In this document: one piece after another, positions 4,090 to 39,056 of the stretch | Position numbering within the stretch: position 1 is the stretch's first letter | Layout: the number at the start of each line of letters is the position of its first letter | Source of the DNA: Lentinula raphanica | Lineage: Eukaryota; Basidiomycota; Agaricomycetes; Agaricales; Omphalotaceae | Length of the DNA: 64,000 nt | NCBI GenBank assembly: GCA_027919835.1 | Contig: JANVFP010000031.1 | Coordinates: 605,994-669,993, forward strand | Reading direction: 5' to 3' | The notes under the pieces: model-generated | Seen by the model: the letters and a program-made list of their open reading frames with translations, nothing else | Database searches by the model: none | Told to the model about the DNA's origin: nothing | Made by a program: the position numbers and the translations under genes

Positions 4090-4090
4090 A

Positions 4091-7494: not shown

Positions 7495-7523
7495 CTATGA
7501 CGATATAATTCGGACAAAATCGG
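7495..7523 (+). repeat. left terminal inverted repeat of the composite
   Basis: Begins CTATGA and continues TCGGACAAAAT; pairs with 39024-39052. The first 6 bp match exactly, then the TCGGACAA block after small indels. Confidence 0.75.
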
Positions 7524-7860
7524 TATAGGTGGTTGGGCACTCCGATTATTTGATCAATGAATCATGGTATTCGCATTTTGACTTGGACTGAATAAATAGA
7601 CGCTCGAGTTGTGTACCGCTCCACTCTGAGTAGGGTCATATAGAAATGGCCTGCACCTGTTAGCACTAACACATATACATGATTGAGTTCAACAAGATGG
7701 CATATAAGTGTTGTTCATTGGTTATTGACTTGCAATAGACTCAAATCAGTCACTCTGGCAGAGATGTGATGAGCGCAATCACTATCTGAGCGCTCATTTC
7801 AGACTTTCCGTGCACGAAGCTTGAGTCTAATTGGTCATTGTTTCTTCACTGTTTTGTGAT
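7503..7860 (+). repeat. left-end repeat of unit 1
   Basis: Related to 19913-20160. Shared blocks include AATTCGGACAAAA, GTGTACCGCTCCACTCTGAG, ATAGAAATGGCCT, ACACATATACATG and TGTGATTGGAATGAAGCA. It marks the left end of each unit in the composite. Confidence 0.75.
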
Positions 7861-8540
7861 TGGAATGAAGCATTTCAACATAGAATGAACAGAACCATTT
7901 CGAGAACTAGTACCAATAGTTGCAGCACTCGCGATCGCAAACTTCATCCATGGCCATTGAACTCGGTCCTATAAAAACATCGTATATTATTTATATATAA
8001 CCCGCTGACAAGTTGCCTATTATGTAGTACGATAGTTCGAAGTACGATAGTTCGAGTAGCTTTGTAGAAGACAGTAAGACCGTGAGCGAGCATAACGCAT
8101 AGCGTCGTCAGAATATTCGGTGTAGATTTCCGTTTTGATTGGCCGGTCGAAGCACTGGACACAACCTGATATCGAGCATCAGTAATATAATGACCGATAC
8201 GAGCCGACTTGCCTGACACGAACAAGTGTAGCGCCGAATAATACCAAATGTCACGGGGGTAATGTGAGGATGAAGAGGGAAGGGGAAAAGAGGGTATGAA
8301 GTGGCGATCGAAGGTGAAAGAAAGCATGTGTATTCAATAAACGAAGTGTATGGGATACGCAAAACAAAGCAGCACAGACAATGATTGGAAGACGATTGTC
8401 CTCACGACCTTACACAAGAATCATATATACTGAAGACGATATGTCAGGAATCTTACTGTCAATATGCGAGAAATACGTACCGACTGATGAATATACAACG
8501 GAACGTATGATCTAGAAACGACACGCAAAGAAAGGATGCT
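7861..8540. other. no supported gene
   Basis: Minus-strand ORFs of 84 and 127 codons overlap each other in different frames and look like chance. A direct repeat, AGTACGATAGTTCGA, occurs twice at about 8026-8055. Nothing else is recognised. Confidence 0.3.
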
Positions 8541-9449
8541 CTACTGCAGGAAACATGGTGAGTAATTTGCGAGAGTATTCAAGGCAGATTTCATTCCAGG
8601 AAGCGTCCTATACAAATTTGTGAGCCATTGACAGAACAGTGAATGTCTTGTCACTTTGCTCACCGTGACTTGTAAGAGGCCCATATGCACAAGCTCAGCA
8701 CTGGCTTTGTCTAACATCTCGCGAACGACACCTCGAATCTCTGTCGACTCTGAATCTGCTAACTTCACCAAAACCTCGAACAGATCAAGGGAATTCCAAG
8801 TGTGACCCTGAACATTAGCTGCAAGGGATTTGACAGTGGGACTGGCGCTTGCAACATCCTCGACTGTTACTATGCGGCGGCCAGGAAGCTGGACAAAGTT
8901 GAACGTGTCACCCGGAAGGGAGAGCAGGGCATCAAGAAGGCGAAGTTGGTAAAGTGCGTTCGACCAAATAGTCCAAAAACCAGTTACAGGGTGGGGATTG
9001 GCGTCACGAGAGCAACCGAGAAGGATGGCGATGAGGAGTTTGAGAGTTGGGGTGTCAACACCGTGTCGGTCGGGAACGTCGAAAGATTTGATCACAGTTG
9101 CCCAATTGAGGTTGGCACTGGGGAAGCTGTTTAAGGCTCGAACTAGAGCTGCTATATCACATATAACCGCTCCTTCAGTAGCCTTCCCGCTCAAGGTTAA
9201 CATGATATCAACGACCAGTTCGTTTTGCGGAGGAGAAACATCAGTGATGCCAAAACGCGCCAAGAGTGCACGAACGACATCGGGTCAGCTGTGATGTCAG
9301 GGCCAAGTTGCGCGAGAGCCTGAACGAGTGTTGTACCGGGGGGTAAACTGTCGAAACTTTGAAGTTGGCATTGATGTATCACATGAGACGATAAAAACTC
9401 ACCTCAAACTAGGCAGAATACGTTGGAGCATAGGAGCAACAGTATCTTT

Positions 9450-9674
9450 CATCAGGAAAAGTACCCTTGGCCCAGGTAACCCAGAGATACCCCCCAAAAC
9501 CTACGCTCTCCCAAAGCACCCAAAGAAATCTGAGGCAAACTCAGGCTTGCCCAGGCTTTTCCAGGCAAACTCAGGCTTGCTCAGGCTTTTTCAGGCAAAT
9601 TCAAAGTTTTCAGACTGCTGAGGTTTTGGGGGGTATCTCTAGGCAGCCTAGGCACCAGGTCAGTTTTGCTGATG
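9450..9674 (+). mobile_element. CATCAG MITE M1
   Basis: 225 bp, ends CATCAGGAAAAG / CAGTTTTGCTGATG, TSD TT (9448-9449, 9675-9676). Subterminal inverted blocks are GAGATACCCCCC and GGGGGGTATCTC. Near-identical to M4 and, inverted, to M6. Confidence 0.9.
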
Positions 9675-9762
9675 TTGCCATATTTGGTCTGTGCTGCCAC
9701 GATAAGTGCTTGTCGTTGTGAGGCATCAAGAACGGGAGAATCTGCAGGAGGATCGGAGAGCA

Positions 9763-10897
9763 CATCAGGAAAAATACCCCTGACCAGAGGTCTTTCAAAG
9801 ACACCAGAGATTCCCCCAAAAGTCTAAAGTCTTTCAAATAGTTTGAAGTATCTAGACTCTCAGAACTCTTTGGGAAAAGGGCTCAAAATTTGGTTTCCTT
9901 GAAATTCTTTAGAATTGTTTCTGAGTTGTTCAAAGGTAACTCAGAGATCCCCAAGATGCTCCAGGTTTTTGGGAATAACCTGAGCTCTTCAGATACTCTA
10001 GAGAGCTTGGATACTCTGAGCTGCCTAGGTTTTTTCCAATATCCTGAAGATTTCTTGAGATTTTTCATGTTCTCTGAATATCTTTGAAAGATCTTTGAAT
10101 ATCTTTGAATATCTTTGAACATCTTTGAAAGATATTTGAGCTTCTCTGAAGACTTTGAGTGTTTGCAAAAATTTGAAATTTGAGATATTGAATATGAAAT
10201 AAGATACTATTGCATCTTAACATCTAGAAGATAGTATAGTGTAGTAATACAGTGTAGATATCAGTTAAACTATTATAACTCACAGTTGTCAATAATATAG
10301 GTGGTCACATGACCTGCTACCGTGGACTGTGTACAATCAAAAAGAATTTCACCAGGTCAAAATCTGAATATAGCTATAATAACATATACTATATACATTG
10401 TTATCTATTATATTTGTTAACATTACACATATATAATGGTTGTAATAATATATTATGATACATATAATCAGAATGTGTTCCGAAATTAATAGTTATCAAG
10501 TTCAAGTACAGTATCTCATAATATATGGGTGTTAGTAGATATAGTCAATATAAGAGCAATAGATAGAGTATCATATGATGAAGTAAAAGTAATTGAATAA
10601 GTTTTTGAATCATTTGAACTCATTAAAGAGCTTTGGAAAATCTTTGAAAGATATCTAAATATCTCTGGAAGACTCTCAGAGATTCTCAGAGATATTCAAA
10701 GATTTCTAAAGATATTCAAAGATATCCAAAGAAATTCAGAGATTTTGAAAGACATTCAAGGAACTCTGAAGGCTTTAGGTTTTGGGGGGTGTCTCAGGAG
10801 ACACTGAAGACACTGAAGACTCTAGAGACCCCAGGCAACCTGGAATTCTTTGAGATCTATGTTGGGTAGCCCTGAGCACAGAACATTTTTGCTGATG
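9763..10897 (+). mobile_element. CATCAG MITE family, long member M2
   Basis: 1,135 bp, ends CATCAGGAAAAATACC / TTTTTGCTGATG, TSD CA (9761-9762, 10898-10899). It shares the inner blocks: GAGATTCCCCCAAAA at the left, TTTTGGGGGGTGTCTC at the right. The interior is AT-rich, with tandem units of about 12 bp (ATCTTTGAATAT type) at 10078-10140 and 10620-10770. No transposase ORF. Confidence 0.85.
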
Positions 10898-11640
10898 CAG
10901 ACTTCCCAGTAATTTGGTAACCTGATTTGGTGACAAGTCTGCAGGGTCGGAAGACGGATTATGACATAGGCTGAGGACTGCATTTTCGAGCTCCTGGTTC
11001 ACGACTATTTGTGCTTGCGCGCTGAATTCTACTCTGACTGGAGAGGAAACGATTGGAGCCGCGAGAACCAGTCGCTCGAGAGGTCGTAAGCCCATGCGAT
11101 CAACGAATCGAACAAAGTCAAATTTCCTGAAGACTTCTCCTTCACTTCCATCAACACCGTCCCGAAAGCGTTCAGCAAGATATGGGTCTCGAGCTAATCT
11201 TTGTGTTTCTTGTAAGAGCAGCCGAAAAGATAGTGAGCACGAGGCGTCGAAGGTCGTGGAATTATTGTCGGAAGACAAACGCGCTTGAGAGTGCGCAATC
11301 AAGCGCCTGATGAAGTACAGGTAGGTATCTATACCATGTTGCTCGGAAAGCTGCAGGAGGTAATGAGTTTTTGTTGGGTGTAGTTGATTGTGAAGACGCA
11401 CTAAGTGAATTTGCAGATGATTCCGTTCATAATTATCCTCCGTCAAGGTTGCCAGCATTAACATTATCACGCCTTTGACGATAGCCGCATGCATGGCCGT
11501 CGTGTCCTCACACAAGTTATCCATATGCGAGTTGGTCCTCGATGGTGGGTCGCTGTGTTGAGGGTGGAATTGTTGATGAATAGTGGGAGGTTGTGATGTG
11601 AAAAAGGATGGGTGGTAACTTGGAGGCGACGCGGTACTTT

Positions 11641-11829
11641 TGAGGCTACAGAGCCACTACGACTGACAAGAGTGAGTCCAACGAGAGAGACAACTTTTGC
11701 GATGATGACTCAGCAGTAAATTTGGTTGAATTTGGAGAGGATTGATAGGCGCTTAAAATAGACGCACACACCTCAAATTTGCGTCTGAATATCGATACAC
11801 TGTCACATTAAGTACATAGAAGAATATAT
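11641..11829. other. junction between NOT1 and PRP8 fragments
   Basis: About 190 bp with no recognisable coding sequence separates the two captured fragments, which lie on the same strand. Confidence 0.3.
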
Positions 11830-17245
<5,416 letters not shown>

Positions 17246-17907: not shown

Positions 17908-18060
17908 CACCGTTTGCTCACCATTTGCTCACCGTCTCGCGGACCAACCGTCCGAATTAGTGGAGACTTCGTCTGACGTAAGCAGTTCTTGATAGCAGGC
18001 GCGCTTTCCTTCCATTGTCAACTTACGTAAAGCTTCATTTTTTGTTGGGCAACGTCGACC
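17908..18060 (+). promoter_or_regulatory. conserved upstream block of Spt5-like copy 1
   Basis: Contains a GCTCACCGT / GCTCACCAT triplet repeat (17908-17937). A block with CCATTGTCAACTTACGTAAA and CTTCATTTTTTGTTG is shared with 24590-24690 upstream of the second Spt5-like gene. Conservation where the coding parts have diverged suggests promoter or leader function. Confidence 0.45.
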
Positions 18061-18084
18061 ACGAATCGCTGCTACTACTGTCTT

Positions 18085-19306
18085 ATCGTTTCTGCTACTC
18101 CATCTTTTCTCGATCGGATGATTCAACATATAGAGGAATCGATTCATCTTCAGGAGATCGCGAGCGCGGGCAGTAGTCGTGTATTTCCAACCGTTATTCC
18201 AGTATCATCGGCGCGCCATGGGCCTCTTCCATCGAGTATTAAACCTAGACGACGCTCAGGATCAACTCCGCCTTTGGGTACAGTAACGCGTATGACAGAC
18301 GTGATGCCTTCGAGTGATATGGAAGCGTCTCATAGTACCGGTGTCGCTGTCGATGTTGCGGGCTCAGAGGTAGAGCAAGATTGGGAAATGGAAGATGAGG
18401 TTGATTTAACCAATGATCAACGTTTATTGAAGCATTGGATCAGAGAACATATGGGTGTTGAAGAGTTGATGGCACCGGGTTTTAAGTTTTTTTACGTTCG
18501 CTGCCAGGTGCATTCCTTTGCTTAATCCACTGAACTCGAACTAATGCAGGAACCTTCAGCCCCAGTTCGAACAAAAAAATGTACATCGCATTTGCACTGA
18601 TATTCAACACCGAGTTAATGACCCTCTGATTCTACGATTTCCCTCTACTTTACCTGGAGGTATATATCTTCAAGCACGAAGCATGCTCCCTCAGAACACT
18701 GTCCTTGCGGCATACCACCTCACAATTCCCGGCTTCTTGTACTCAAAAACCCCCCGATTCGCATTTCCAGTGCACGAGTTGAATCCCCACATATCTACAG
18801 CAGAAGCTCGCACAGAATTAGCGTTACCATCTATAGTCCCATTGATGTTCCTGTGGGCATTCAATGCATTCCACGGCGACCGACCCATCTTGATCGATAT
18901 CCCCCTCGTAGTTGGATCAAAGGCAAAAGCGGTCTTCACAAGGATTTGGACTTGTTGCAGACGAATTCGGTGGAACGGGCTCTCCGTCCAAACCCGTTAC
19001 GAAACACAGGGAATAAAGAATTCGTTTGCCTGGGTCGACTACCACTTACTCCAGCGCATGGATAATGATTGGTTTCTTCATGACGTCGATGGTTCTGACG
19101 AGGCTGGTTTGCATACGAAATGGAATATTCACTGGCGTCTGAAATCTGTCTATACCCCCGCTTACTCACCTGGAGAACGGCGTAATCGGATATTACTGGA
19201 GGAGACTGCACTGGCAACTGGTTCCACGGGCGCAGGACCGACTCGTGCGACAACGTCCTATTTTCAACCCACTCAGTCTGGTACTTACCATTGGAACGAG
19301 CGTTGA
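18085..19306 (+). pseudogene. Spt5-like (NGN/KOW) gene, decayed copy 1
   Basis: Parallels 25140-30200. Shared pieces are MIQHIEESIHLQEIA (18118), DVAGSEVEQDWEMEDEVDLT, the block ending FFYVRCQV at the exon end (about 18510), MLPQNTVLAAYHLTIPGFLY (18683) and RYETQGIKNSFAWVDYHLL (about 18990). The KOW region is joined directly to the later segment, so the middle third seen in copy 2 is deleted. Frames shift between segments and there are stops between 18525 and 18683. Only relics of introns remain. A non-functional remnant belonging to unit 1. Confidence 0.7.
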
Positions 19307-20484: not shown

Positions 20485-23400
20485 ATGGATTATTCTCAGA
20501 TCGTCCAACAGTCCCTGCAAGCCATGCTTGCTAGCAATCCCCAGCTCATTCTTCAGTTCTTGCAGCAGTCGTCTCCTCCGGCATCCGGTTCGAGTGGGCC
20601 ACAGTTATCCGTTTCACCTCAGCCGTCAGCTCCTACTCCGTTGACGCCTACCTCTTCTTCCCCCGAAGGCTCCTCAGTCTCGTCTTCAGTTTCAGTTTCT
20701 GCAGCTCCGCCTGCTCTTACGGCTTCGCAGACAAGTCCTGCATCCGCAGCTTCGCAGACGATACCTGCACCGCTACCTTCTACTAGCACGTTAACGAGCT
20801 CGTTGCATTCCCAGCCAGCGCCGCCGATCACAACTTATCTATCTCCTCTCAGTATGTTGGCATCTGTTTGCGCTTCGGGTTCCAACAATGGTCCTTTGCA
20901 CCCCCAGCCTCACCTTTCCATAGCCTCACAACGATAGAACGAGCGAATCGTGACCGTAACAAGCATGCAGCTCAGATGTCGACGAGCAACCCTGAAAGGA
21001 GGAGGAAGAGGAGAGGTCAAGGTAGGAAGCCGCCTAGACTGGTTGGCGGTGTTGGTCCCTTCAAAGTAGAAGATACAATCGCCACAGCGAGCGATGGAAC
21101 GGAAGTTGTGAGCTTGGTCGTCCTCGTGTATCTGCCGCGCCTCAGTCCTGATGACTGTCAGGTATGTCTTCTTATATATCATTCTATAATTTTATGATAC
21201 TAACATGATAATCATTTCAGATTCATAACCTCCCTCTCGAGCTTCACCACTATGTGCAGAACAGCGACGCGTTCCAGACTGTCCTCGAATCTCTCAATCT
21301 AGTCTATCATTTTGATAATTTGTCTCTCAACACGAAGGTTGTCGACCTCCTTGACGTTGTCCAATCGTCTCTATCTCAGGCCGGTTGGACCTTTCCCCAA
21401 AATCCGAGCTCTGGTACCGAGCCATCGGCATTCTTCCGTCGTCACGAGCGCCTTGCTATACAGCTTCTGCGATTTGTTGGCCGAGGCAACATTAATAATA
21501 ACGCGAAGACGCCTCGACTGATCCCAGGGAAAGTAGAATCTGAGACCATGACCTTGGCCCAAGTCGTCTGCAACAGCGCAGACTATGGGGTTGCTAAGTA
21601 CGCTGTCACTCCCGAGAAAAAGTTTCTTCTTCACACCGGTATGGTCCGTGCTTCGATTTCCAAGGGTGATCACTGATTTTAATGCAATAGTCATCCGATC
21701 TCCCAATGTTTCCTTGAACGTCAACCTGTTCGAGAAAGGTCTTGGATCTGAGAATGTCGCACAGACCCATAACTGCCTTTCGAAACGTATATATGGAATC
21801 TTTCGTTCTGACGGGGACGCCCTTGTAGATGAGGGATATAGAGCACTTAACGAGGCCGAAATGGAGTTTGGGTGTAGAAGGAATACCGACGAGGAATCTA
21901 CGGTATGTTTATTCTATCCATTTTAACGACTCGAATTGATTCGATCCTAGGACATGAGGGTAGTAGCTCAAATGCTCACGATGGAGCCGTCGAGTTCTAC
22001 TTCTATCACCCAAGGTAAATTGCTCAATGAGTTGAACATTCCAACAGCTCACCATTCACAGATTTACTCGACTTACCGCCCCCGATTCCTCCAACGATTC
22101 AAATTCAAGGTAGCCCAGAAGAAGCTCCGGAGACTGCAGTAAGTCGCAGGCACTCGTTCAGCTTGCACAGGAGTTCATGTGTTTCGTGATAGCCTATCAA
22201 TATCCTTTGGGATACCACTTGGGTCCCTCCTCCAGTCGCCGAAATGTTTACTATCGTCGATCGTTCACCCATCTTCAAATACGTTTCGGAGCGATACCAC
22301 CACGTATTCGATACTGAAGAATTGGGTTTCATGATCAAAGCGGATACCACGCATGCAATGGTTCAAGAATACACCAAGCTTGTACGCAAAGCAAACATAG
22401 ATGGAGATTTCACTGCTGTCCTGTCGGAGCACAGACATTTTCAGTTGTGAGTGCATCAGGAAAAATATTCTCATCTCTAGAGTCCCCAGAGATACCCCCC
22501 AATTCCTAGGTAATCTCAGAGAGCCTAGAGTATCTGAGTTCTTTGAGGCTTCTAAAAATTCTCTGGGTGCTTTCTGATGCTTTCTGGTGCTTTCTGGTGC
22601 TTTCTGATGCTTTCAGGATCTCTAGGATGTTTTTTGATCTTTCAAAGTTCACAAAAATCTCTGAGCAGCCTAGGAATTGGGGGGTATCTCTGGGGACTCT
22701 AGAGCTGAGAATATTTTTCCTGATGTGCGTTGTTCAGCGAATCAATTGATGTTTCTTATACATATTTCCAGAGTGAATATCGAACCAGATGGCTCCGAGA
22801 CCTATATCACCTCGGGACCCGGCGTCGAAAAGGAGGTTATGAGCATCTTCTTCAAGTCAAACTTCAGTGACGCTGCGAGCCTTCTTACGAACGTTATCGA
22901 TGACTACACCACACTCGCCACCGTGCCCATGCTGTCGGCTTCAGATATATCGCCCACCAAGAAGGATGAGCTAACTCACTTTGGGTCGGTTGTCGGGTTA
23001 TCCCTCATACACGGGGTTTATCCTGCAAATCTGAATCCTCTGCTTCTGGTATACCTCCTCAGTGGTTGCGATCTCGGCTCCATCACGAAAGACTTGGTGG
23101 TTGAATACTTCCCTACACTATATCAGACTTTAAGCCGATGGCTCGCACTCAGATATGACGACAATAGCAATCTAAACTCATTTCAAGCACATTTTGCAAC
23201 TTATCATTATCTACCGGTACGTTCCTCTAGTCGTCGCCATTGCACATACTCAAGGTTTCCCAGGTTGCGGCTTTACGTGATCGTTCTGAAAGACTCCATC
23301 AATCGCTGGCATGTACAATGCTTCACAATGCCATCGTCGGTCCCGAAACCGTCGAACATCCATATTTCAAAGCTTTCTTGAAGGGCCTCCTCCTACCGTG

Positions 23401-24151
23401 TGGGATTCTGGGTGTGGACTTATCCGAAGTACGTATATATCTGTATGCTCGAATAGTGGTCGTACTCACTGTGTGTAATCACTAGATCGCAAGACGTTTC
23501 AGCGGTGGTACGAGTGAATTCGTTACCTCACTCCTCGAAACTCGCATCACAGGCGACTATTCTATGCTTCGAATCGATTACATCGACCATATCAACGGTT
23601 CTATTCAGCGTGAGCTCGAAGACGCTCTGTCGTCGGTTTTCCCAACATTATCTGACAAAGGATTTCCGGCCATCTTCCGAGAGTTTCTGGAAGGTTCAGG
23701 ATTACCGCCACCTCTGACTATACAAGGATTGCGAGGCAGGTTCGCAGATATAGTATCACTCGACGATGTTTCCAAGAAAGGATTCCGAATGAGAATGTTC
23801 TGCTGGGCAACTACTGGAGTGCCTCATATACTCCTCAATGGTTCTTATACTGAGGTGAGTGATTTTTGTTCATATTCGAGGCTATGCTTAAACGATCCAT
23901 AGGTTTGTCTGATTGCAGACAACAGTCCCCAGTACCTTAGTCATGATACTTCAGACGAGGAGCGTGCACAGCATTTGAATAATGGCACATGCTGCTTCAA
24001 GACCTGCACACGCATGATGCTCATACCCGCATCCTACCTTTTGAAGTTGTTACGGACGCCGTCTAGCAATCCACGGGCGGTCATGGACGCAATCTTTAGC
24101 TGGCTATTCTTGCAGATTCTGGATGGCGTTGGGAATTACAACGTTTTGTAG
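20485..24151 (+). CDS. HECT-like ubiquitin-ligase domain protein, intact
   Basis: Eleven exons splice into one frame with no stop: 20485-20851, 20908-21161, 21221-21638, 21691-21902, 21951-22014, 22062-22138, 22193-22446, 22772-23216, 23264-23428, 23486-23854, 23903-24151. They total 2,874 nt, or 957 aa. The N-terminus is Gln/Ser/Pro-rich, then a basic stretch (PERRRKRRGQGRKPPR). The C-terminal third resembles a HECT fold: LTHFGSVVGLSLIHGVYPAN and a C-terminal TCCF..C block (about residue 918) at the place of the HECT catalytic Cys, followed by a helix. HECT proteins accept ubiquitin on that Cys and pass it to substrates. MITE M3 sits inside intron 7 without harming coding. It lies in unit 2 of the composite. 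HECT is my reading of distant similarity. Confidence 0.72.
22454..22725 (+). mobile_element. CATCAG MITE M3
   Basis: 272 bp, ends CATCAGGAAAAATATTC / ATATTTTTCCTGATG, TSD TG (22452-22453, 22726-22727), inner blocks GAGATACCCCCCAATTCC / GGAATTGGGGGGTATCTC. It lies inside an intron of the HECT-like gene. Internally it has a short tandem TGCTTTCTGG/A array. Confidence 0.9.
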
Positions 24152-24999: not shown

Positions 25000-27900
25000 A
25001 TGATCCACAACTTAATTTTGCTTGAAGCAGAGGAAGAAGATTCAGAATGGGACAGTTCAGATGGTGATGAAGCCACCACTCGTGCTACCGCGGAAATTCC
25101 ATCGGAATATATTCTCCCATCCGCTGATACTCCATATTTTTTCGATCGGATGATTCAGCATATGGAGGAATCGATTCATCTTTGGAATATTGTCAATGCG
25201 CGTACTGGCAGTAGTTGCGTTCTTCCAACCGTTATTCCAGTATCTTCGGCACGCCATGAGCCTCTTCCATCACGAATTACAACTAGACGACGCCCAGCAT
25301 CTGTGCCTCCGCCGGCTATATCAAGGACGACTACCGCCAGACTACCACGTTCGGAATCAGCTCCGCCTTTGGACACAGTAATACGTATGACAAATGTGAA
25401 GTCTTCGAGTGGCATGGGAACGGCGGGCTATAGTACCGGTATCGCGATTGATGTTTCGGGCTCAGAAGTGGAGCAAGATAGGGAAATGGAAGATGAGGTT
25501 GATTTAACCAATGAGCAACGCTTATTGAAGCATTGGATCAAAAAATATATGGGTGCGGAAGAGTTGGTGGTACCAGGGTTCACGTTTTTTTACGTTCGCT
25601 GCCAGGTGGGATCATTCGATTATTCCGTTGAACTTGAACTCATGGAGAGAACCTTCAGCCCCAGTTCGAACAGAAAATCGTAAATCGAATTTGCACAGAT
25701 ATTCAACACCGAAATATTGATCCTCTGATTCTACGAGCGGCATTTCCCTCTACTTTACCTGGAGGTATATATCTTCAAGCACGAAGCATGCTCCCTCAGA
25801 ACACTGTCCTTGCGGCGTACCTTCTTACGATCCCCGGCTTCCTGTACTCGAAAATACCCCGATTCGCATTTCCAGCGCACGAGTTGAATCACCGTATATC
25901 TACAGCAGAAGCTCGCACAGATCTAGCGTTACCCATCCATAGTCCCATTGACGATCCTGCGGGCATTCAATGCATTCTACGGGAACCGACCCATCTTGAT
26001 CGATATCCTCCTCGTAGTTGGATCAAATGCAAAAAGGGTCTTTACAAGAATGACGTTGGACTTGTCATTGCAGACGAATTCGATGAGATCAACTCTGATG
26101 TCGAACGTTTGGTTTTATTTCCTCCTCGAATTGACTGGGACTTGGTTCCCGATTTTTCCAGTGGCAAAGCCTCCCTTGGCAAACGAAAGTGCCAGCCAAC
26201 AGACCGCCCAGGGGTTCTCTCGCGGCAAGCTGGAGAGTATATCGCTGAGAATTACTGCTTCCCCACCCAAATGGATTGTGCTAGACACTGCGAAACGCCC
26301 CATTCATGTTCACATTCTGAAACGACACACAAACGCTATCTATGTCTAGATCAACAGTGGCAGAATGGCCTTGTTCTCGTACGAATAAAGCTCACAGATA
26401 TGGAGCTTGCATCGGAGATTCCAGCCAAGAATCGCTACTATTTTCTAGAATCCAAACATTATGCCGTTCAACAATCTCTCCTATGGATGCCTCCGCCATC
26501 ATCTTGGGAATTCCGGATCGGGGAGGCCGTCCGTTTCACTGATTTCGATGGCCATTGGTGTACACCAGGTGGACGATATACATTCGAACTCCCCGAGGGC
26601 TGTACCAAAGGCATGATTCACCATGTTGGTCCTGCAGATTGTGCAGCTGATACTGTGAAGCTTTTGTAAAAAGGTCCGATGAGTTATCGAGGAACGTTTG
26701 AAAAAACCTGTGATAACTCGGAGGGGGCTCCGGAAATGGCTCCGGGGGGTGGTCATGCCTGTCACCACCTGTCACATGGGGCCTATATTTACTATTTTGG
26801 GTAATTAATAATTATCCAGATATTAAATAAGCAGTACATTTTCAAAAAAACCCGAAAATTCATTAAAAATCTAAAAAATCCTAAAAAAGCCAGATTAGGT
26901 CAGATCAGGGTATGTAAGCAAATGACCTCATATGATAAAAAATGATGTAGGGTCAATATAGGTACTAAAAATAGCCCAAAAAATCACTAAAAATGCAAAA
27001 AATATTTAGGGATGGTATAGAGCCTATTGCAGGTCCAGGCCCATCAACATTACCAAAAAAGGAAAAAATTGATCATGATGTCATCTTGTAGCAAAAAATC
27101 TGAAAAAAATCATAAAAATAGTTAAAAAATTCAGGGGTGCCTTGTTGGCCCTGAAAATGCAAAATAAAAAAAAAATACGCGACAAGTGTAAAAAATTTTA
27201 TCACTCCAAATCATACCAAATCCACTATACAGTCAGAATATATGATGTATATGCTATTTTTAGCACCTCTAGCACCCTCGATCACTCAGAATAGCTTATA
27301 TCACTTAAAAATCACACCAAACTGACAACATTGAGTAAATATGATGTACATGATATTTTTAGCACACCTAGTACCCTTGGACACTCAGAACAATTTTTAT
27401 TACTCAATATGTTCAGTACACTTGGTACTTATCACACCTAACATACTAAAATTTGGAACAGTAGTGATATGTATTATGTCTAACACAGTTGACAATAAAT
27501 ACTCAAAATAGTGTTATCAGTCACTATACTTAACACACTTAACAGTCAAAAAGTCGGAACAATATTACTTGATATACATAACACACTCATTGTTATACTA
27601 TAACACACTTATAACAACGAGTTTTGGGCGCTTATGGGCGCTTATTTGGTGTTTTTGAGTCGAAATTCATTAATAGCACACTCAATAATTTTTGTGTGGG
27701 CTCTATATTGTGTCAGGATGTTGTCTATATCATATTCCTCTAGATATAATTCGGAGAACTCGAAAATACAACCTGTGGGGCTAGCTATACTGTGATCTTG
27801 TGTGATATAATAGTGTTTTATGTAAATGCCAATGCATATGTCCATGTAGTGCAAGTATACTGATGCTAGTGCATGAGAAAAGCACTCCTACAGTCTACTG

Positions 27901-30791
27901 GCAGTGTCTGTACATGATTCAGATAGCTATCATAAAGGTTGGACACTGTGATACACATGTACATGTTTCATGTACACCATAGATGTCTACACCTACATGT
28001 AACAATAGATGTCATATTCAATGACCCCCATTACAGATCTCTTGGTTGTATCACATAGAGTTAGCATAGAATATGTTGTAGGATGACTCTTTTCATGACC
28101 CAGCAGCAGTTTGACTTCATAACATGGGTGTATGCACTGTCATTTACATAAAACAGTGTTATATCACAAAAAATCATAGCATAGCTAGCCCCACAGGTTG
28201 TATTTTCGAGTTCTCCGAATTATATCTAGAGGAGTATGATATAGACAACATCCTGACACAATATAGAGCCCACACAAAAATTATTGAGTGAGCTATTAAT
28301 GAATTTCGACTCAAAAAACCCAAATAAGCGCCCATAAGCGCCCAAAACTCGTTGTTATAAGTGTGTTATAGTATAACAATGAGTGTGTTATGTATATCAA
28401 GTAATATTGTTCCGACTTTTTGACTGTTAAGTGTGTTAAGTATAGTGACTGATAACACTATTTTGAGTATTTATTGTCAACTGTGTTAGACATAATACAT
28501 ATCACTACTGTTCCAAATTTTAGTATGTTAGGTGTGATAAGTACCAAGTGTACTGAACATATTGAGTAATAAAAATTGTTCTGAGTGTTCAAGGGTACTA
28601 GGTGTGCTAAAAATATCATGTACATCATATTTACTCAATGTTGTCAGTTTGGTGTGATTTTTAAGTGATATAAGCTATTCTGAGTGATCGAGGGTGCTAG
28701 AGGTGCTAAAAATAGCATATACATCATATATTCTGACTGTATAGTGGATTTGGTATGATTTGGAGTGATAAAATTTTTTACACTTGTCGCGTATTTTTTT
28801 TTATTTTGCATTTTCAGGGCCAACAAGGCACCCCTGAATTTTTTAACTATTTTTATGATTTTTTTCAGATTTTTTGCTACAAGATGACATCATGATCAAT
28901 TTTTTCCTTTTTTGGTAATGTTGATGGGCCTGGACCTGCAATAGGCTCTATACCATCCCTAAATATTTTTTGCATTTTTAGTGATTTTTTGGGCTATTTT
29001 TAGTACCTATATTGACCCTACATCATTTTTTATCATATGAGGTCATTTGCTTACATATCCTGATCTGACCTAATCTGGCTTTTTTAGGATTTTTTAGATT
29101 TTTAATGAATTTTCGGGTTTTTTTGAAAATGTACTGCTTATTTAATATCTGGATAATTATTAATTACCCAAAACAGTAAATATAGGCCCCATGTGACAGG
29201 TGGTGACAGGCATGACCACCCTCCGGAGCCATTTCCGGAGCCCTCTCCGAGTTATCACAGGTTTTTTCAAACGTTCCTCGATAACTCATCGGACCTTTTT
29301 ACAAAAGCTTCACAGTATCCTGTGGATTGTGAGATCAACATCCCTCTGCAGGTGGCGAATATCACGGTCAACTCACTCCATACGATGTCAAAAGTCCATC
29401 TTGAAAAAATGTTCTATCCGGGCGATACTGTTCAACTTCTTCCTGGGGTCCGTCAAAAGCTTCGCTTACACCATGAAACGAATGGATACATGGCATTGGC
29501 TGAAACGAAGGCGATAGAGCTGGCAGGAAAGGAAGGTCTGGTGATCAGTGTTTGTCCTGGTAGAGTTGAGGTGCTGTTACAGGAGGATCACAATGAGGTC
29601 CGGCTCACTTCTCAATCATCGTACTGATAACTGAATGACTTCTAAAAGCAAATTCTTGAATTTCACCCAAATACACTCACAAAGGTGGAACAATCGGCCG
29701 CCGTCAACGACGTGGTATATCATCGCTCAAACCACCTTTCAACACACCAACACAGGATCCCTTTGATCGAACCCTCCACCGCTCAATTTCCTTTGAAGAA
29801 CGTGGAAGTGTATCCCATCAAATATTCCAAAAAGGGTTATCGAGCCATAGTCGTAGATGCAAAATTGGATGAAGACACCGTCAGCGGGCTCTCCGTCCAA
29901 ATCCGTTACGAAACACAGGGAATGAATAATTCATTTGCCTGGGTCGACTACCACTTACTCCGGCGCGTGGATAATGATCGGTTCCTTCACGACGACGACG
30001 ATAGTTCTGAGGCTAGCTCTCATACAAAATGGGATAGTTACTGGCATCTGAAATCTGGCTACTCCCCAGCTTACTCCCCTGAAGAACAGCGTGATCGGAA
30101 GAGGCGAAAATTACTGGAGAATAATGCACTAGCCACAGACGCAGAACCGACTCGTGCGACAACGCCCTGTTCTTTCAACCCACCCAGTCCGGGCACAGAC
30201 CCAGCCTGGGATCCTTCTTCTCCCGATCCTCCTTCGCACCACTGGATCCTTGATCCGCGCATCGTGACGTCAGTTCAGGGTAACCTGGAACTGTTGGTAG
30301 CAACTACGGCCGACCCAAAGCAAGATCAACGGGTTTTCATACAAACTGTACACGGTGTAACGAAGGTGTACTCTAACGTAGGAAACCTGCGAAGAAGTCC
30401 CAATAGTAGCAATATTGTCGAAGTAGACCCCTGGACCATCCTTCAAAACCCTCGATCATTCTCTGTACCTTCCAATCCCGCGACTGCCAAAGGCCTGTAC
30501 ATCATCTGCTCAGGAGAACACACTGGGAAGTTATGTCGCCGAGTCAACTATATGATGCACTTGGATTCAACAAAACCCTCACGCTGGTTTGTTCAAGTGG
30601 TCAAGCTCATACGCCAACCCAAGCACAGGAAAGGTATACAATTCGATGAAATCATCGATACGGACGCTGGAGCTTTCTGGATTGAAGGCAAAGACCTGGC
30701 TACTGTGCATGAAACTGTGAGTATGCGGGCTAAGGGAAACAAACAGTTGGAATTGATTCGTACTACATATCAACCAATACATGAGTTGTAA
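25000..30791 (+). pseudogene. Spt5-like (NGN/KOW) gene, copy 2, split by FB-2
   Basis: Exons are 25000-25605, 25650-26643 joined to 29332-29597 once FB-2 and one TSD are removed, and 29685-30791. They total 2,973 nt (about 990 aa) in one frame with no stop. The TSD GATTGTG at both edges of FB-2 shows exact insertion into codons. Domains: an acidic N-terminus (VEQDREMEDEVDLTNEQRLL); an NGN-like stretch (residues about 203-290, ending near PGFLYSKIPRF); a KOW-like motif SWIKCKKGLYKNDVGLVIAD at about 310; a later KOW-like FYPGDTVQLLPG..GLVISVCPGRVEV; and a C-terminal region of unknown fold. Spt5/NusG proteins bind RNA polymerase and nascent RNA. This gene looks like a mobile relative, not the housekeeping SPT5. 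The start codon is uncertain. Confidence 0.68.
26644..29324 (+). mobile_element. foldback element FB-2
   Basis: 2,681 bp, starting CAGCTGATACTG and ending CAGTATCCTGTG, TSD GATTGTG (26637-26643, 29325-29331). The two arms are inverted copies of each other over about 1.2-1.3 kb, covering nearly the whole element, with the centre near 27985. The arm interiors carry TTATAACAACGAG, GGGCGCTTATGGGCGCTTAT and ACATGTACATGT motifs. A 70-codon ORF in one arm recurs in other copies but is degenerate in the partner arm. No transposase, so it is non-autonomous. Transcribed through, it would form a very long hairpin. Confidence 0.95.
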
Positions 30792-30976: not shown

Positions 30977-31442
30977 TTATGCATTAACCCTCGACTGCAA
31001 AGAAGCTTTCCAACGAATACGAATTGTAAGGTTAGTGCTTTTGGTATTTTCGATAATATGTACTGAGCATCCATTTTCAGCTGAGTCCAGGAGAATGAAG
31101 AACGTTCTGAGGACGAAATGTATGGAGGACAAATCTAAAGGATAGAAGGGAGCTCGCGGATCTGCAAGGTGAGTTCTCAGGGTGGGATCTGTGTTCAAGG
31201 CATATAGTTCCAGCTTATAATACATATCGTAGAACGTCTGAGATGATTGGCCAAGATAGCCTATTTTTCCTAACTGACGGAAATCCACCAGTCTGTGCAA
31301 GGGACCTTGGAAGGTCGGCGGTTCCGTGGCAAATGCCATTATGGTATCGGCGTTGCACACTGAGGGCTGAAACAGGCTGAAACCCACGGGCGAAAAGCTT
31401 TCGCATCGATATCGTACCATTGAAACCCCCTTTAGTTCTCAA
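30977..31442 (-). CDS. unrecognised minus-strand ORF
   Basis: A 147-codon frame ending at 30977 and an overlapping 75-codon frame reaching 31442 suggest a diverged, possibly interrupted gene. It includes GKIGYLGQSSQTFYDMYYKL and FVLRTFFILLDSAENG. It looks more protein-like than chance but has no family I can name. It lies convergent to the Spt5-like gene and divergent from the integrase gene. Confidence 0.3.
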
Positions 31443-31890: not shown

Positions 31891-33870
31891 ATGAACCCCC
31901 CATTTTCCTCGTCTTTACTGCTATCTGTGGTCTTACTGGTACTTCCATGTCTGAACTGGCATGCCTACTCAATATTCTGTCGGGCAAGCACTCCTATTTC
32001 ATTACAAGACCCGAACATTTCAGGTCCCGATGCCCTCACACTCCAGGACGAGTTTCGAAGACATTACCACCACTTCCAGTCTGTTTTGAACCAAATATCT
32101 CAGGATGACACGACAGATGTCTTTCATATACTACTGCTAGGCGAAGACCTCGAAGAATATGCCAATCTCGTTGCTCAGGTAAGTGAAACCCAGCAAGTAA
32201 ATGTGCTCAAGCTCAGCGCGAACAGAATTCAGCGACATTTCTCGACCAAGCAGAATGGCAAACACTTCAAACAAACATACAAAGTATGATCATGGACCTT
32301 CGGACGATATACGATCAACGAGTGGAACAGAGTCATCATGGACGCCCAAACATCGTCTCTTGGGAGCACAGTGGTTCTGCAGGGCGACCTCGGGCAATTA
32401 TTGATCCCAGCTTCCTACAGTGGGCTCATGGGCGTCGTTTGACTAGCGGTATCGCATATTTCTTGGGTTTAAGCACTAGGACGGTTAGGAGGTCACTTCT
32501 TGAATACGGCATAGTGTCTCCAGGACATACACCGTTTGCAGATAGAATGGATGCAAATAATGCTGCTCAGGACGACAGTCTTGATCCAGAAACCCTACCT
32601 CCAGAAGTTCAAAACGCGGCAAATGCAATCCAGTCTTCGTCGTCATCAAGTCGCCTTTCAAATATGTCCAACGATGATCTCGATACGATGATACAGTTGC
32701 TCCGTTCACATTATCCCAGTGCTGGGATACGAATATTGGATGGAATGCTGCGACGGCTTGGTCATGTCGTACCGTATGAAAGGATTCGACAATCTTTGAT
32801 GAGAATTAACCCCGTTCAACGTACCTTCGACCGGATCCGAATTCGCCGTCGTCGCTACACAGTTCCCGGCCCTAATTCGCTTTGGCACCATGATGGGCAC
32901 CACCGTAAGAGTCTTCAGTCTTAGTCCATTATGTTGTATGGTGCTAATTTTTCCGGAACCAGGACTTATACGATAGGGTATTGTGATTCATGGGTTTATT
33001 GATGGTTATTCTCGTTTAATCACAGCCCTCCGCGCACACAACAATAACCGCTCCTCGACCGTTCTCTCTTTGTTCATGTCTGCTGCTGCAAGATATGGGT
33101 TACCTTCACGGATACGAGGAGATCATGGTGTGGAGAACGTATGGGTTGCGGCTTACATGGAACACGCCCGAGGTTCAGGACGAGGATCGTATATTTGGGG
33201 AAGGTGCGATGTTGTATCTTCATTTGAACTCCCTTCCTGATGCCCATTTAGATCTGTTCACAACGTTTGTATCGAGAGACTATGGGTAGATGTATCGAAT
33301 TACATTACTCAGCCATGGAACGACATATTTTCCGGGCTCGAGCAACGCTACCATCTGGATATCAGCAATCCGAACCACATTTGGCTTCTCCAGTATCTAT
33401 TCATGGACACCATCAACATTATTCTAGCATTCTGGGCCGAGGGCTGGAATAATCACCGGATTACTCAGCGAGATGGACCAAGTCGTAGCCCAGAAGATAT
33501 GTGGGGTTTCGACATGCTTGTCCATGGGATACGAGGCGATAGTGTGGACGACTTTTCTATGTCGGATCAAGAGTTAGCGGATTTTGGTGTTGACTGGGAA
33601 GATTTGGAAGATGAAGCGTTGTTACAATCACTACGGCGCAACTATGCACATGAAGAGGGTGCCAGCACTTGGCTCGGACGGCACGGTCCTCCACCGGTTC
33701 TCAATGAGGTGCATGTTGAACCCCCTTCGGGTTTGATGACCACTGCGGAGATCCAAGCTCTAGACTCTTTCCTCGAACCAATCTCTCAAATTTCGAATGA
33801 AGGTGACGCAATACGTTTGTGGTGCATGGCCCTTGCATACGTTCGAGCTTTGTATCCCGATTACTTTTAG
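31891..33870 (+). pseudogene. DDE integrase-core protein, candidate transposase, one nonsense codon
   Basis: Exons 31891-32178, 32226-32904, 32963-33203 and 33252-33870 join in frame (608 codons). The order is a helical N-terminus, a helix-turn-helix-like segment (LTSGIAYFLGLSTRTVRRSL), then an rve-type core. Asp is in LWHHDGHH, Asp in [11 protein letters not shown], and Glu in SVHNVCIERLW 35 residues later, a D..D35E spacing. The context [12 protein letters not shown] and EGWNNHRI matches the integrase-core proteins common in fish and fungal genomes. A TAG at 32974-32976 replaces the expected Trp of LIRW. All three catalytic residues survive. It is the only transposase-like gene inside the composite. 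The N-terminal start is uncertain, since the first residues look like a translated intron or leader. Confidence 0.75.
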
Positions 33871-34571
33871 TTTATCTATCCTGCCATCTAAGTAGATCAA
33901 TAGATGTGATTGTCGATGAAATATTCAAGCAGACGCGTTCATCCTCAAGCATTTCCACGACCATCTCTTCTCACTTGCCTTCCATGTTTCTTTCCAGCAA
34001 ATCTTTGAGATTCTTTGACAGATTCTCCGTAGGCTTGTTTTATGTCTGCCTCGAATAATGGACTCTGAGGTCTGCTTAACTCATGAGATGGCTTCAGTAA
34101 GTACAGTCGCTTCCACTCGCCGCCTTTGGCTGATGAACTTTCGTAGAGAACTGATTTCATTCATTGGCCAACCGCGAAAAGATTCTACGCCAAGCCTGCT
34201 TCGATTGTGATTCCATATTCCACCACTACTGTTTACGCGAATTCGTAACTTCGTAGAGTGTTTTGACTGACGCTATCATCAAAATCCATGGAGACTTTAA
34301 GATCATGGTCCCGTTTTAGGGCTTGGCAGGTACAGTGGTCGTCCATCTTCATATGATCATACCTATTTTGACTCTCATCGCTACACATTCATCTCTGAAA
34401 ATAGTGGGGACTTCTCTTCAAAAATTGGAAGGAAATAAACCCTGCAGTAAGCGTTTCGAATTCTTCATACCTCGAGTCGTGGCTCATGATATCTACCGTA
34501 CATGCCTTTGACAACTCCTCGCCTTCTCTACTCGTGCTCGTGAACAATATGCTTAAGGTATTGTTCTGCAG
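33871..34571. other. no supported gene
   Basis: Short frames only. The part from about 34400 may contain badly decayed ACC1 exon sequence just before the recognisable region. Nothing else seen. Confidence 0.3.
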
Positions 34572-37076
34572 GTATTGCTACTGTTCAAGAAATCAGGTCC
34601 ATCCGACAATGGAGCTATGGAACCTTCGGTAGCGAACGTCAAGTAGATATCACAGTCATGGATATCGGAAGATCTCGAGGCTAATGAATACCTTCGTATG
34701 GGCCATTGGTATATCGAAGTTCTCAGAGGGACGAATAACAACAACTTCCCCAACGTTGATCTCATCGTCGATGTCGCAAAACGTGCTGGTGTTCATGTCT
34801 AGGCTGATTGGGGACATGCTTCCGAAAATTCACGTCTACCGGAGAGCCTGACAGCTAGTAAAAACAAGATCGTCTTTATTGGTCCTCCTGGCAGCGCAAT
34901 GAGGAGTTTAGGCGACAAAATTCCAGTACCATCGTCGCCAGCGTGCTCACGTTCCTACAATGCCATGGTCTGGAACGGGGATATCCGACACTGCTCTGTC
35001 CGAGGCTGGATACGTCATCGTCCCCGACTCGGCCTATCAGGCTGCTTGTGTTACGTCCGTTGAGGAAGGCTTAGCAAAGGCCGAAACGATTGGATGGCCC
35101 GTCATGATCAAGGCTAGTGAAGGAGGCGGAGGAAAGGGTATCAGAAAAGTGGAACAACCCGAAGCTTTCAAGAACACGTATCACGCTGTCGCTGGAGAAA
35201 TACCTGGTATGCGATCCACGATCTTCGTGATCTAATGCATATATTCGTCTATATTCTAGGTTCTCCTATATTCATCATGAAGTTGGCTGGAGCCGCTCGC
35301 CATCTCGAAGTACAACTTCTCGCTGATCAGTATGGAAACGCCATTTCTTTGTTCGGACGCGATTGTTCTGTCCAACGCCGTCACCAAAAGATTATAGAAG
35401 AAGCTCCTGTTACAATTGCCAAACCCGACACTTTCAAGAAAATGGAACGTGCGGCCGTGCGTTTAGCAAAACTTGTCGGATATGTTAGCGCTGGAACAGT
35501 CGAATGTCAGTTCTATGTTATTGTTCTGTTTCACCCCCTCACTCACTTGTAAGACAGATCTCTATAGTCACGCTGATGACTCTTTCCACTTCCTGGAACT
35601 CAACCCACGTCTTCAAGTCGAACATCCCACCACTGAAATGGTGTCCGGAGTCAACCTGCCTGCTGCTCAACTCCAAGTAGCTATGGGCATTCCCCTTCAT
35701 CGTATCAGACGTATTCGCCAATTGTACGGTGTGGCTCCGAATGCCGCATCCGAGATCGACTTCGACATGATCAAGCCCGACGCCAATCAACTCCAGCGTA
35801 AGCCACGCCCGAAAGGACACGTCGTAGCAGTTCGTATCACTGCAGAAAATCCCGATGCTGGGTTCAAGCCCTCTTCCGGTTCCCTCCAGGAGCTCAACTT
35901 CCGTTCTAGTATGAACGTCTGGGGTTATTTCTCTGTTAGCTCCGCAGGTGGTCTGCACGAATTTGCGGATTCCCAGTTTGGACATATTTTCGCATACGGT
36001 GAAGATAGAGGCGAGAGTCGCAAGAACATGATCATCGCGCTCAAGGAACTCAGTATCCGAGGTGACTTTAGAACGACTGTTGAGTATCTGATCAAACTGC
36101 TCGAACTGGATGCCTTCAAGGACAACACCATCACCACCGGCTGGCTAGACTCTCTTATCAGCGACAAGCTCACCGCAGAACGTCCCGACGCCACTCTTGC
36201 AGTCATTTGTGGTGCCGTCACAAAAGCATACCTCGCCTCGGAAGCTTGCTGGACAGAGTACAAGCGTATTTTGGACAAGGGTCAGGTCCCAGCTCGCGAC
36301 GTGCTGAAAACCGTCTTTGTGATTGATTTCATTTACGAAAATGTCAGATACTCGTTCACCGCCGCGAGATCTTCTTCTACCGCTTGGACTCTATACCTCA
36401 ATGGAGGCAGCACTATGGTCGGTGCCCGTCCGCTAGCTGACGGTGGTCTTTTGGTTTTGGGACGGAAGGAGTCACTCAGTTTACTGGCGTGAGGAAGTCG
36501 GTGCCCTCCGTTTGATGGTAGATGCAAAAACTTGCCTGATTGAACAGGAGAACGACCCTACCCAGTTGAGGAGTCCGAGTCCAGGGAAGCTGGTTCGCTT
36601 CTTCGTTGATAGTGGGGACCATATCAGGGCTGGAGAGCAATATGCTGAGATAGAGGTATGTTGAATCAGATTTTGTCTTGAGTGTTGATGTTGATCACTT
36701 TCAGGTCATGAAAATGTACATGCCCTCGGTCGCGTCCGAGGATGGGGTTGTGCAGTTGATCAAGCAGCCCGGAGTTAGCCTAGAACCTGGAGACATCCTC
36801 GGTATCCTGACCTTGGATGATCCCGGTCGCGTCAAGCACGCTAAACCTTTTGAAGGTCTTCTTCCTACGATGGGTACTCCGGCTGTGACTGGTAACAAAC
36901 CACATCAACGCTTCGTTCACTGCATCGGCGTCTTGACCGATATCTTGGACGGTTTCGACAACCAGGCAATCATGGCGGCCATAATGAAAGCAGCATCTAT
37001 AGATGTTATCATGGATGAGCCACAGCGTATCAAGTACGCTGAAAAGAGAAAGAGGAATGGGAGGATATCGGGGTGA
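34572..37076 (+). pseudogene. ACC1: ACC1 acetyl-CoA carboxylase, N-terminal fragment
   Basis: Matches eukaryotic acetyl-CoA carboxylase from just after its N-terminus through the biotin carboxylase and biotin carrier domains: EIRSIRQWSYGTFGSERQVD (about 34590), KNKIVFIGPPGSAMRSLGDK, MPWSGTGISDTALSEAGY, the ATP-grasp glycine loop [18 protein letters not shown] (about 35105), [20 protein letters not shown] and the biotin site VMKMYMPSVASEDG (about 36706). It ends at 37076, so the central and carboxyltransferase regions are missing. Lesions include a TAG in the D-W-G-H-A-S-E-N region (about 34800), a frameshift near 34930 and a 2-nt loss near 36460. Introns are kept. The intact enzyme makes malonyl-CoA; this copy cannot. 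Confidence 0.93.
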
Positions 37077-37446
37077 CGCCCACAATGAAGCTGTCGCTGC
37101 AAACGATAATGATCATGTAAGCTTCATATATCGATGTCGGTATTGTTGCGTGGGTTGCGAAACGTTATCCAAATCCGGTAGGGCTTACTGAGGGCGGGAA
37201 TAATGGAATGTATCGCGAGGCGGCAATTACCAAGTTGGGAAAGAGTGAGTCGGCTTGTAACCGATGGAAGTACGCAAGATCTTGATTAAGAAACGACAAG
37301 TCATTGCTTGGTAACTGATCCCATCGACTGCATCAACTCATCTTGCTCTTTCCAGCTTTCCTCCACGCTCATAATCCAGATCCATAAACCTATATAACTA
37401 CCTCTTCCCCAGACACCATTGCCAGCCTTCCTCCAATCTCTCAGCC
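37077..37446. other. spacer between ACC1 fragment and GIY-YIG gene
   Basis: Nothing recognised. GC content resembles the flanking genes. Confidence 0.3.
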
Positions 37447-37948
37447 ATGACCAAGCGACCCCGCCGAGTATTGCGCACTATGTACGCGTCCCGCAGAGCT
37501 CGTCCGACTTCTCTCGCAGATGGGCCCGGCTTTTTATACGTTTTCATCGACAACGGCAACAAGTGGAAGGTTGGGATGTCGAAGAACTTCGCTAGACAAA
37601 GAGCGGAGTGGAACAGGGAGTGTCCGTGTCCGAATTGAGTATGGATGAGGCCCGTCGCGGTCAAACGAAGGCGCAGAGCGGGTACGTCGTTTGTTATCGA
37701 TGTCGAGACCCAGCTGGCTCATCGTCGCCTCAGAGGCACTTGCGCATATCCTCCTCGAGCTCGCATGCTTCGATCGTCCGTACGATTACTGTCCCCACTG
37801 TACGTATTCAATCTCTCCACGCTCAGCTCGCCGACATTTCTGTCAAGGCCGCAAAACCCATCGCGAGGTGTTCATCTTCAATGGAAACCAGGCGAACGTG
37901 TGGAACTCTATCGTTGGTCCGTTGATTTCGAGTATCGTCAAGGCGTGA
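37447..37948 (+). pseudogene. GIY-YIG / T5orf172-like nuclease-domain protein, one nonsense codon
   Basis: Exons 37447-37681, 37734-37799 and 37848-37948 join to 134 codons. The core GFLYVFIDNGNKWKVGMSKN is a GIY-YIG-type motif variant (L-Y-V-F ... K-V-G), followed by FARQRAEWNRECPCPN and a second half with YCPHC, then RKTHREVFIFNGN. Agaricomycete genomes carry many such small T5orf172-type proteins of unknown role. A TGA at 37636-37638 sits where a CGA (Arg) codon would be expected. It lies between the ACC1 fragment and the right end of the composite. It may help nick DNA or may simply be cargo; no evidence decides. Confidence 0.65.
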
Positions 37949-38314
37949 GGTGGGCTTTTCCCTTCTTTCTGAGACTTGTTTACTGACTCTGATTGATTAC
38001 AGTGGGATGGATAGCGATATCTACCAATATTATTCATTGAATTAGCTGTAGTTTTTTAAATATTAAATTCGAGTACGAACAAAGTACGCCGCCACGTACA
38101 AAACACAAAAAACACGCCACATATCCCATCAGATAAGTATTCCCGTCAATCCTTCATGACTCTCGACTCACGAAGCCGCCAGGACGAATCGAATCGAAGC
38201 CGCGGAGGACGTGTATTCTAAAAATCAAGGCGGCGAGAAAAGGAAAAAAAAAAGGGGGGGGCATTTTACTGGTGCGCAAATTCAATCTACTGTTTTTTAA
38301 TTCTTGCTAATCGC

Positions 38315-39052
38315 TGGAACGAGCATGATATCTGCCATGAGGCTTCGCCTCATCGAATTAAAAAATGCTTATGTATTGGAATTAAAAACTGCTTAGTGGG
38401 ATCAAAGAATGCTTAGTAAACCAAAGCTATGTACAGAAATTAGAATTCAAGAACTTGCTTCTTTTTCTCGAGTTTGGGATCGTGTGAGTATGTAGATCAG
38501 TGTAAATCATGCACGGATCATGAATCTAAATTCTTACGCATACGATCTGCTTCCGAAAGTCCGGCTCATTGAATGAGAATCGAACTGAATCTGGAAAACC
38601 AGCGACAATTCCGCAAAACCATTAATCAATCATTTCGGACAAGCGGTACATGAGCTAGAACGCGAGGTCTAAAGATGCATACACACTTGTGTTCGAATTC
38701 AGTAACGTACTCGCACCGGAACCAACCGCAGTCAAAATGATGCGAGTCCATATCTGTCGAAGATGAGTCTACATCGATACGCTATGAGTCCTTTCCGACT
38801 GAACATGACTCGATATCAACAATTTTCCACGAGAGTTGTACGAATGAGTCGAAGTCTAACGTGCTGTTCTCCATACCTATCAAAGGGAGGGATGAATCAT
38901 AGATATCGATTACTCAGAAAAGTCAAAGTCGAGATTCGTAGTGCTCAGACGAGTCGAAGTGCAAAGTTCAAGTCACGTTCCGAGTCAAAGTCACGGCTGC
39001 AGGTCCAGAAAGCTGATCGATGTCAAATATTGTCCGAAAATTACTTTCATAG
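38315..39052 (+). repeat. right-end repeat of unit 2 and right TIR
   Basis: Related to 19300-19912. It ends in a run of degenerate GAGTCAAAGTC / CGAGTCGAAGT direct repeats (38770-39000) and then the right inverted terminus (39024-39052). Subterminal short direct repeats are typical transposase-binding arrays, which is inferred here. Upstream, 38245-38262 is an A10/G8 homopolymer stretch. Confidence 0.7.
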
Positions 39053-39056
39053 TTAT

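Follow-up and report, generated by a model that had tools for sequence, protein, structure and literature searches.

We analyzed a 64,000-nt stretch of a Lentinula raphanica contig (the window; L. raphanica contigs are labelled C1, C3, C4, C8, C14, C18, C30 and so on), in which a foldback repeat, FB-1, is interrupted by what appears to be a giant IS3EU-type DNA transposon. The element spans 31,556 bp (7496–39051, + strand) and carries a DDE integrase-like transposase gene, a HECT-like gene, Spt5-like genes, a GIY-YIG reading frame and pieces of host genes. At the left junction (7495/7496) the sequence ...AGTGTTATC is followed by TATGACG, and at the right junction (39051/39052) TTTCATA is followed by GTTATCAGTC, while the site is uninterrupted (...AGTGTTATCAGTCAC...) in two other foldback copies of the window. 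Because both sister foldbacks read straight through, the target-site duplication (TSD) can be set at the six bases GTTATC, found at 7490–7495 and again at 39052–39057 and present once in each of the two other foldbacks. An initial annotation of this DNA had correctly placed the break in FB-1 at 7495/39052, but its 4-bp duplication, TTAT, has to be extended to six. Of the ends it proposed, CTATGA...TCATAG, the inner TATGA...TCATA stands, whereas the outermost C and G are bases of the duplicated target. The TCGGACAA blocks that it noted inside both ends are indeed there, and form part of an imperfect terminal inverted repeat of about 25 bp (TATGACGATATAATTCGGACAAAAT at 7496–7520 on the + strand, and TATGAAAGTAATTTTCGGACAATAT, read inward, at 39027–39051 on the − strand).

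Terminal segments of 806 bp (left) and 800 bp (right) served as queries against the same genome. Further copies with these ends were found in unrelated flanks, and the ends are therefore not a chance feature; since the target foldback is otherwise intact, the initial proposal of a giant DNA transposon whose ends can be defined is supported. The C30 copy (544240–571492; 27,253 bp) showed 100% identity to the window copy over the left 806 bp, had different flanks, and differed from it by 87 substitutions over 27,147 aligned bp. Approximately 4.3 kb of the window copy consists of insertions missing from the C30 copy, and the element is composite in that sense. A TSD was present on both sides of the C30 element (GAGAGC), of the 23,794-bp C4 element (ACATTC) and of the C14 element (ACTTGC), whose ends lie 158 kb apart and in which the gene positions suggest large nested insertions. 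In all, a 6-bp TSD was seen directly in four elements (window, C30, C14 and C4) and in three more by matching flanks across contigs. The flanks of C1, C18 and C40 form a closed three-way cycle permuted by 6-bp duplications, with CTTCTT shared by C1 left and C18 right, CCTCTA by C18 left and C40 right, and TGGGAG by C40 left and C1 right. A right flank is common to C61 and C8, and C61 may be a second haplotype.

Degenerate terminus patterns, drawn from the copies already seen and allowing up to three mismatches on the right, gave 26 genome matches for the right terminus and nine for the left, vs none for either reversed control. Twenty-two of the 26 right termini lay 0.6–8.0 kb downstream of an integrase gene on the same strand; the remainder were 11.4 kb (C4), 21.9 kb (C24) and 107 kb (C14) from an integrase, or had none found (C53). 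The right ends of the C14, C18 and C40 elements read CCATA. In a distant subfamily, an alignment of C52 with C49, which reached the right ends only, stopped exactly after TCATA.

The transposase gene (31891–33870, + strand) has four inferred exons, and the window copy contains a premature in-frame stop. The C30 gene comprises four exons encoding 608 residues, with intron positions shared with C4, and its product matched Pfam rva_4 with an E-value of 1.7e-67, in agreement with the earlier call of a DDE integrase-core gene. A D-56-D-34-E spacing was found in 18 of the 19 rows in which all three motifs could be located (alignment of 25 rows). The nearest NCBIfam models were IS481 (4.8e-14, 52.5 bits) and then IS3 (5.2e-4, 19.4 bits), neither of which reached its curated cut-off (224 and 160 bits, respectively). 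A search of the integrase alignment against the PDB returned one row (E 0.32), taken as chance. Among the best 120 of 400 homologues, 116 were named, and all of these are, going by their names, presumably Agaricomycetes.

The HECT-like gene (20485–24147, + strand) was modelled as 14 exons and 813 codons, transferred by script from C30; the exon models of this and of the Spt5-like gene are approximate. It showed no in-frame stop in the window, consistent with the intact gene first described, and harbors in an intron a 270-bp nested insertion (22455–22724) with GTGC on both flanks. This insertion and those within 9450–10896 start with ATCAGGAAAA and end with TGAT, and are perhaps short non-autonomous transposons. 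Since HECT was not seen by Pfam in the C30 model or in alignment A2, nor by sequence in the PDB, the identity of the gene is drawn from fold comparison, in which all 50 rows shown were HECT ligases. The product may have ubiquitin-ligase activity. The motif FKTCTR/YRTCSR was present in 11 of 16 aligned relatives and missing in the other five, and its Cys is a candidate for the HECT catalytic cysteine. Twenty-six of 32 HECT-like loci lay within 15 kb of an integrase, where random placement gave a mean of 0.90 and a maximum of 5.

An Spt5-like multi-KOW gene (gene B; 25000–30791, + strand) follows, and a partial duplicate of it (gene A) lies at 18031–19303 (+ strand); the gene is duplicated in the window family. 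SPT5 was the top PDB match of the Spt5-like profile (E 6e-4, over the KOW1 region), and the designation holds to the extent that matches were consistently to SPT5/KOW, though weak. Every one of the 21 homologues retrieved comes from L. raphanica, and an integrase lay within 15 kb of 19 of 24 Spt5-like loci. In the window, an exon of gene B is split by the foldback FB-2 (26644–29317), which is missing from C30. The insertion of FB-2 is accompanied by a near 14-bp duplication, and FB-2 belongs to a family of large foldbacks in the window (about 6622–7495 with 39052–40863; 26644–29317; 45195–48321; 48803–51563). Outside the element, a direct repeat of 300 nt at 99% identity occurs at 1571–1870 and 4086–4385, a spacing of 2,515 bp that is shared by smaller repeats.

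Two shorter frames complete the inventory. In the window copy, a GIY-YIG (T5orf172-like) frame at 37447–37635 (+ strand) ends at an in-frame stop; the GIY-YIG assignment held for the C4 copy, which scored 22 bits against a cut-off of 20, and not for the C30 copy, which fell below it at 19.3. An open frame of unknown function at 30980–31438 (− strand) matched no Pfam family, and is similar to the C4 element over 74 codons in the corresponding position. A tRNA scan of the window found none.

Host-gene fragments had also been reported in the element, and we identified two of them by Pfam. A 4.96-kb Prp8 fragment (12276–17218, − strand) shares 97% identity with the host gene (copy C21) and carries four frameshifting indels relative to the automatic gene model, and an acetyl-CoA carboxylase fragment (34515–36990, + strand), also frameshifted, is 95% identical across 2.5 kb of the host gene (copy C57). 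A third piece (8544–11841, − strand; host copy C3:1812046), the 5′ part of its gene, gave no Pfam match and is putatively from Not1. All three pieces keep introns, and were therefore taken up as genomic DNA. The Not1 piece occurs in seven elements (C31, C30, C8, C18, C1, C40 and C14), free of stops and frameshifts in C30, C8 and C18, whereas in the window it has one frameshift and is broken by the insertions within 9450–10896. C4 carries an Rpb2 piece instead, the host gene of which is probably on C12. Pack-MULE and Helitron transposons also carry host-gene pieces inside them, with transposases that differ from that of the Lentinula element.

Exon-based comparison of the Prp8 and carboxylase pieces with their host genes, from which the frameshifts were also scored, gave ratios of nonsynonymous to synonymous rates (dN/dS) of 0.11–0.19 despite the frameshifts; the pieces may have been acquired from a relative or an allele that had diverged. 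For the Not1 piece, three-way branch ratios were 0.02 (host), 0.34 (C30) and 0.20 (C18), or 0.06 (host), 0.44 (C8) and 0.17 (C18) when C8 replaced C30; the short branches alone gave 0.39 for C30 and 0.64 for C8. Judged from these ratios, constraint on the Not1 piece is relaxed yet below neutrality, unless the branch partly predates capture. Decayed Not1-like pieces with 55% identity and several stops lie at C4:1390458–1391146 and C24:80668–81356, within approximately 3 kb of right-end-like sequence, and suggest an old Not1 capture by this element lineage. A predicted 852-aa protein of Ganoderma boninense (P0067) has Prp8 pieces fused to an IS3EU-like integrase, and thus places Prp8 sequence beside this transposase in another mushroom lineage.

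We compared diverged copies to assess selection on the genes of the element. Between C30 and C4, dN/dS was 0.14 for the integrase (synonymous divergence, dS, 0.91), 0.17 for the HECT-like gene (dS 1.08) and 0.22 for the Spt5-like gene (dS 0.96), with no stops in any of the three, a pattern of purifying selection on all of them. The GIY-YIG exon gave 0.11, at saturated dS. The window copy itself is damaged, with in-frame stops in the integrase and GIY-YIG genes that C30 lacks and the Spt5-like gene B split, while the HECT exons are open. Of the 87 sites at which the window copy and C30 differ, C-to-T or G-to-A changes in the former account for 70, of which 60 fall at CpG. With C61 serving to polarise 21,153 sites, CpG transitions made up 45 of the 57 derived changes in the window copy and 5 of the 11 in C30. 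This excess suggests that the window copy decayed after cytosine methylation.

We consider it highly probable that the locus holds one copy of an L. raphanica family of giant IS3EU/GingerRoot-type transposons with a HECT/Spt5-like module. An integrase-like transposase would recognise the TATGA...TCATA inverted ends and insert the element so as to duplicate 6 bp of target; both the ends and the duplication are observed, and the chemistry is presumably cut-and-paste. The HECT-fold gene travels with the transposase at many loci and the Spt5-like gene at a subset. Large essential host genes (Prp8, Not1 and the carboxylase) were picked up in pieces with their introns, as genomic DNA, and the window copy is probably a recent insertion that has since been damaged and has accumulated CpG transitions.

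Several results weigh against this explanation. The case for transposition is built from sequence comparison. A 500-bp left flank of the C30 site matched C30 alone in this assembly, giving no empty allele. The flanks of the C8 element are unmatched (left GCAAAT, right GGCTCG), and the permuted flanks of C1, C18 and C40 may reflect exchange between elements or assembly joins. The IS3EU/GingerRoot placement is based on ends, TSD and profiles. The HECT-like structure model is of modest confidence (mean predicted local distance difference test score 59, predicted template modelling score 0.36), root-mean-square deviations over the whole domain were 11–16 in most rows of the fold comparison, the Pfam HECT profile matched none of 16 relatives, and 19 of 46 integrase loci had no HECT-like locus within 15 kb. 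Similarity of the Spt5-like proteins was weak, with Pfam KOW1_SPT5 matched in two of 20 (best E 0.07) and NGN in one of 20 (E 0.11). The close copies C30 and C61 gave higher dN/dS values of 0.30 for the integrase (dS 0.017), 0.54 for HECT (dS 0.109) and 0.42 for the Spt5-like gene (dS 0.025), so that constraint on the youngest copies is either weaker or poorly measured. Finally, the roles suggested for the accessory proteins are drawn by analogy.

A narrower reading, which overlaps the one above and does not exclude it, is that of a smaller two-gene IS3EU of HECT and transposase with the rest as passive baggage, and we allow it a substantial minority of the probability. In its favour, the HECT-like and Spt5-like genes occur together within 15 kb at 13 of 46 integrase loci, the Prp8 and carboxylase pieces are frameshifted, and C4 has its Rpb2 piece in place of Not1. 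However, the low dN/dS and absence of stops in the Spt5-like gene between C30 and C4 argue for more than passive carriage, as do the open and unshifted Not1 piece in C30, C8 and C18 and, with the reservation of saturation, the GIY-YIG exon.

The class of the element was weighed against the Ginger transposons, which had been suggested as the first comparison. IS3EU/GingerRoot elements have TA..TA ends, usually a 6-bp TSD, and a DDE transposase near IS3/IS481 without an HHCC domain, according to the accessible text of Kojima and Bao (2023; PMC10045372). The Lentinula elements share all of these features, and would differ in being giant (23.8 kb in C4, 27.3 kb in C30 and 31.6 kb in the window) and in their HECT-like, Spt5-like and captured host genes; the comparison with that accessible text covered the word HECT, which does not occur in it. 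Ginger1 and Ginger2 also use an integrase-like DDE transposase, but have TSDs of 4 bp and of 4 or 5 bp, respectively, and Ginger1 has an HHCC domain (PMC10045372, same text). No column of the integrase alignment had Cys in at least 13 of the 25 rows, and an HHCC finger is therefore lacking in the Lentinula protein. Although an integrase-core protein with a match to rve PF00665 (E 5.4e-7, under its cut-off) would suit a Ginger element, the 6-bp TSD, the TA..TA ends, the absence of HHCC and the proximity to IS481 and IS3 make that assignment very unlikely, and fit IS3EU/GingerRoot instead. Polinton/Maverick elements carry polymerase, capsid and protease genes. No such family appeared when Pfam was run on 21 of the 22 frames of at least 150 aa touching the element (the frame crossing the right end and most frames below 150 aa were left out), and with a transposase nearest to IS481/IS3 a Polinton or other virus-like integrating element is a slighter prospect still, despite the 6-bp TSD (PMC10045372, accessible text) and integrase-like transposase in common. 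That the 31 kb arose by segmental duplication or rearrangement is scarcely credible, the cyclic flanks of C1, C18 and C40 notwithstanding, given that the 6-bp duplications are exact, that the flanks are unrelated and that the target foldback is complete.

The closest parallel to an IS3EU/GingerRoot-type family with accessory genes comes from rust fungi, in which IS3EU elements with TET/JBP and alpha-kinase genes have 6-bp TSDs and TAYGG..CCRTA ends (Kojima 2025; PMC12730594, accessible text). The TSD, the TA ends (compare CCATA in C14, C18 and C40) and the presence of accessory genes beside the transposase are shared with the Lentinula elements; the accessory genes themselves differ, and the inverted repeats exceed 30 bp in the rust elements whereas those of Lentinula are imperfect and about 25 bp. 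The words HECT, Spt5 and GIY-YIG are absent from the accessible text of PMC12730594. Starships are likewise giant cargo-carrying fungal elements, but are classed by a tyrosine recombinase (PMC12134995, accessible text), and a basidiomycete Starship report also uses captain genes (PMC13066641, accessible text), whereas the Lentinula element has a DDE transposase. The same Pfam scans contained no tyrosine recombinase, and included no search aimed at captains. None of the papers listed in our literature searches, from lists that were in part capped and that largely omit subscription papers, reports this gene combination.

The HECT, Spt5-like and Not1 parts could have a counter-silencing role, as an analogy with the TET/JBP genes in rust IS3EU elements would suggest. 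The HECT and Spt5-like proteins might shield the element from host silencing, the former through ubiquitin-directed removal of a host factor and the latter by helping transcription through repressed DNA. An extension that is possible but doubtful is that mushroom IS3EU elements are giant vehicles with a counter-silencing module, in which a HECT ligase removes a host silencing factor, an Spt5-like factor keeps transcription going and a captured N-terminal part of Not1, its frame maintained, acts as a decoy of the host CCR4-NOT complex. Such a module would give these elements a protein-based equivalent of what the TET/JBP genes are in rust IS3EU.

If the giant IS3EU/GingerRoot-type family is borne out, DDE transposons related to IS3/IS481 could, in mushrooms, grow to tens of kilobases and carry conserved accessory genes, and would form a class of giant fungal elements separate from the tyrosine-recombinase Starships. 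A HECT-type ligase beside a transposase in diverged families would offer a testable case of ubiquitin acting against host defence, and the Prp8, Not1, carboxylase and Rpb2 pieces a system for studying gene capture. The family would also make it possible to test how large DNA transposons are assembled and whether such elements escape silencing by the host.

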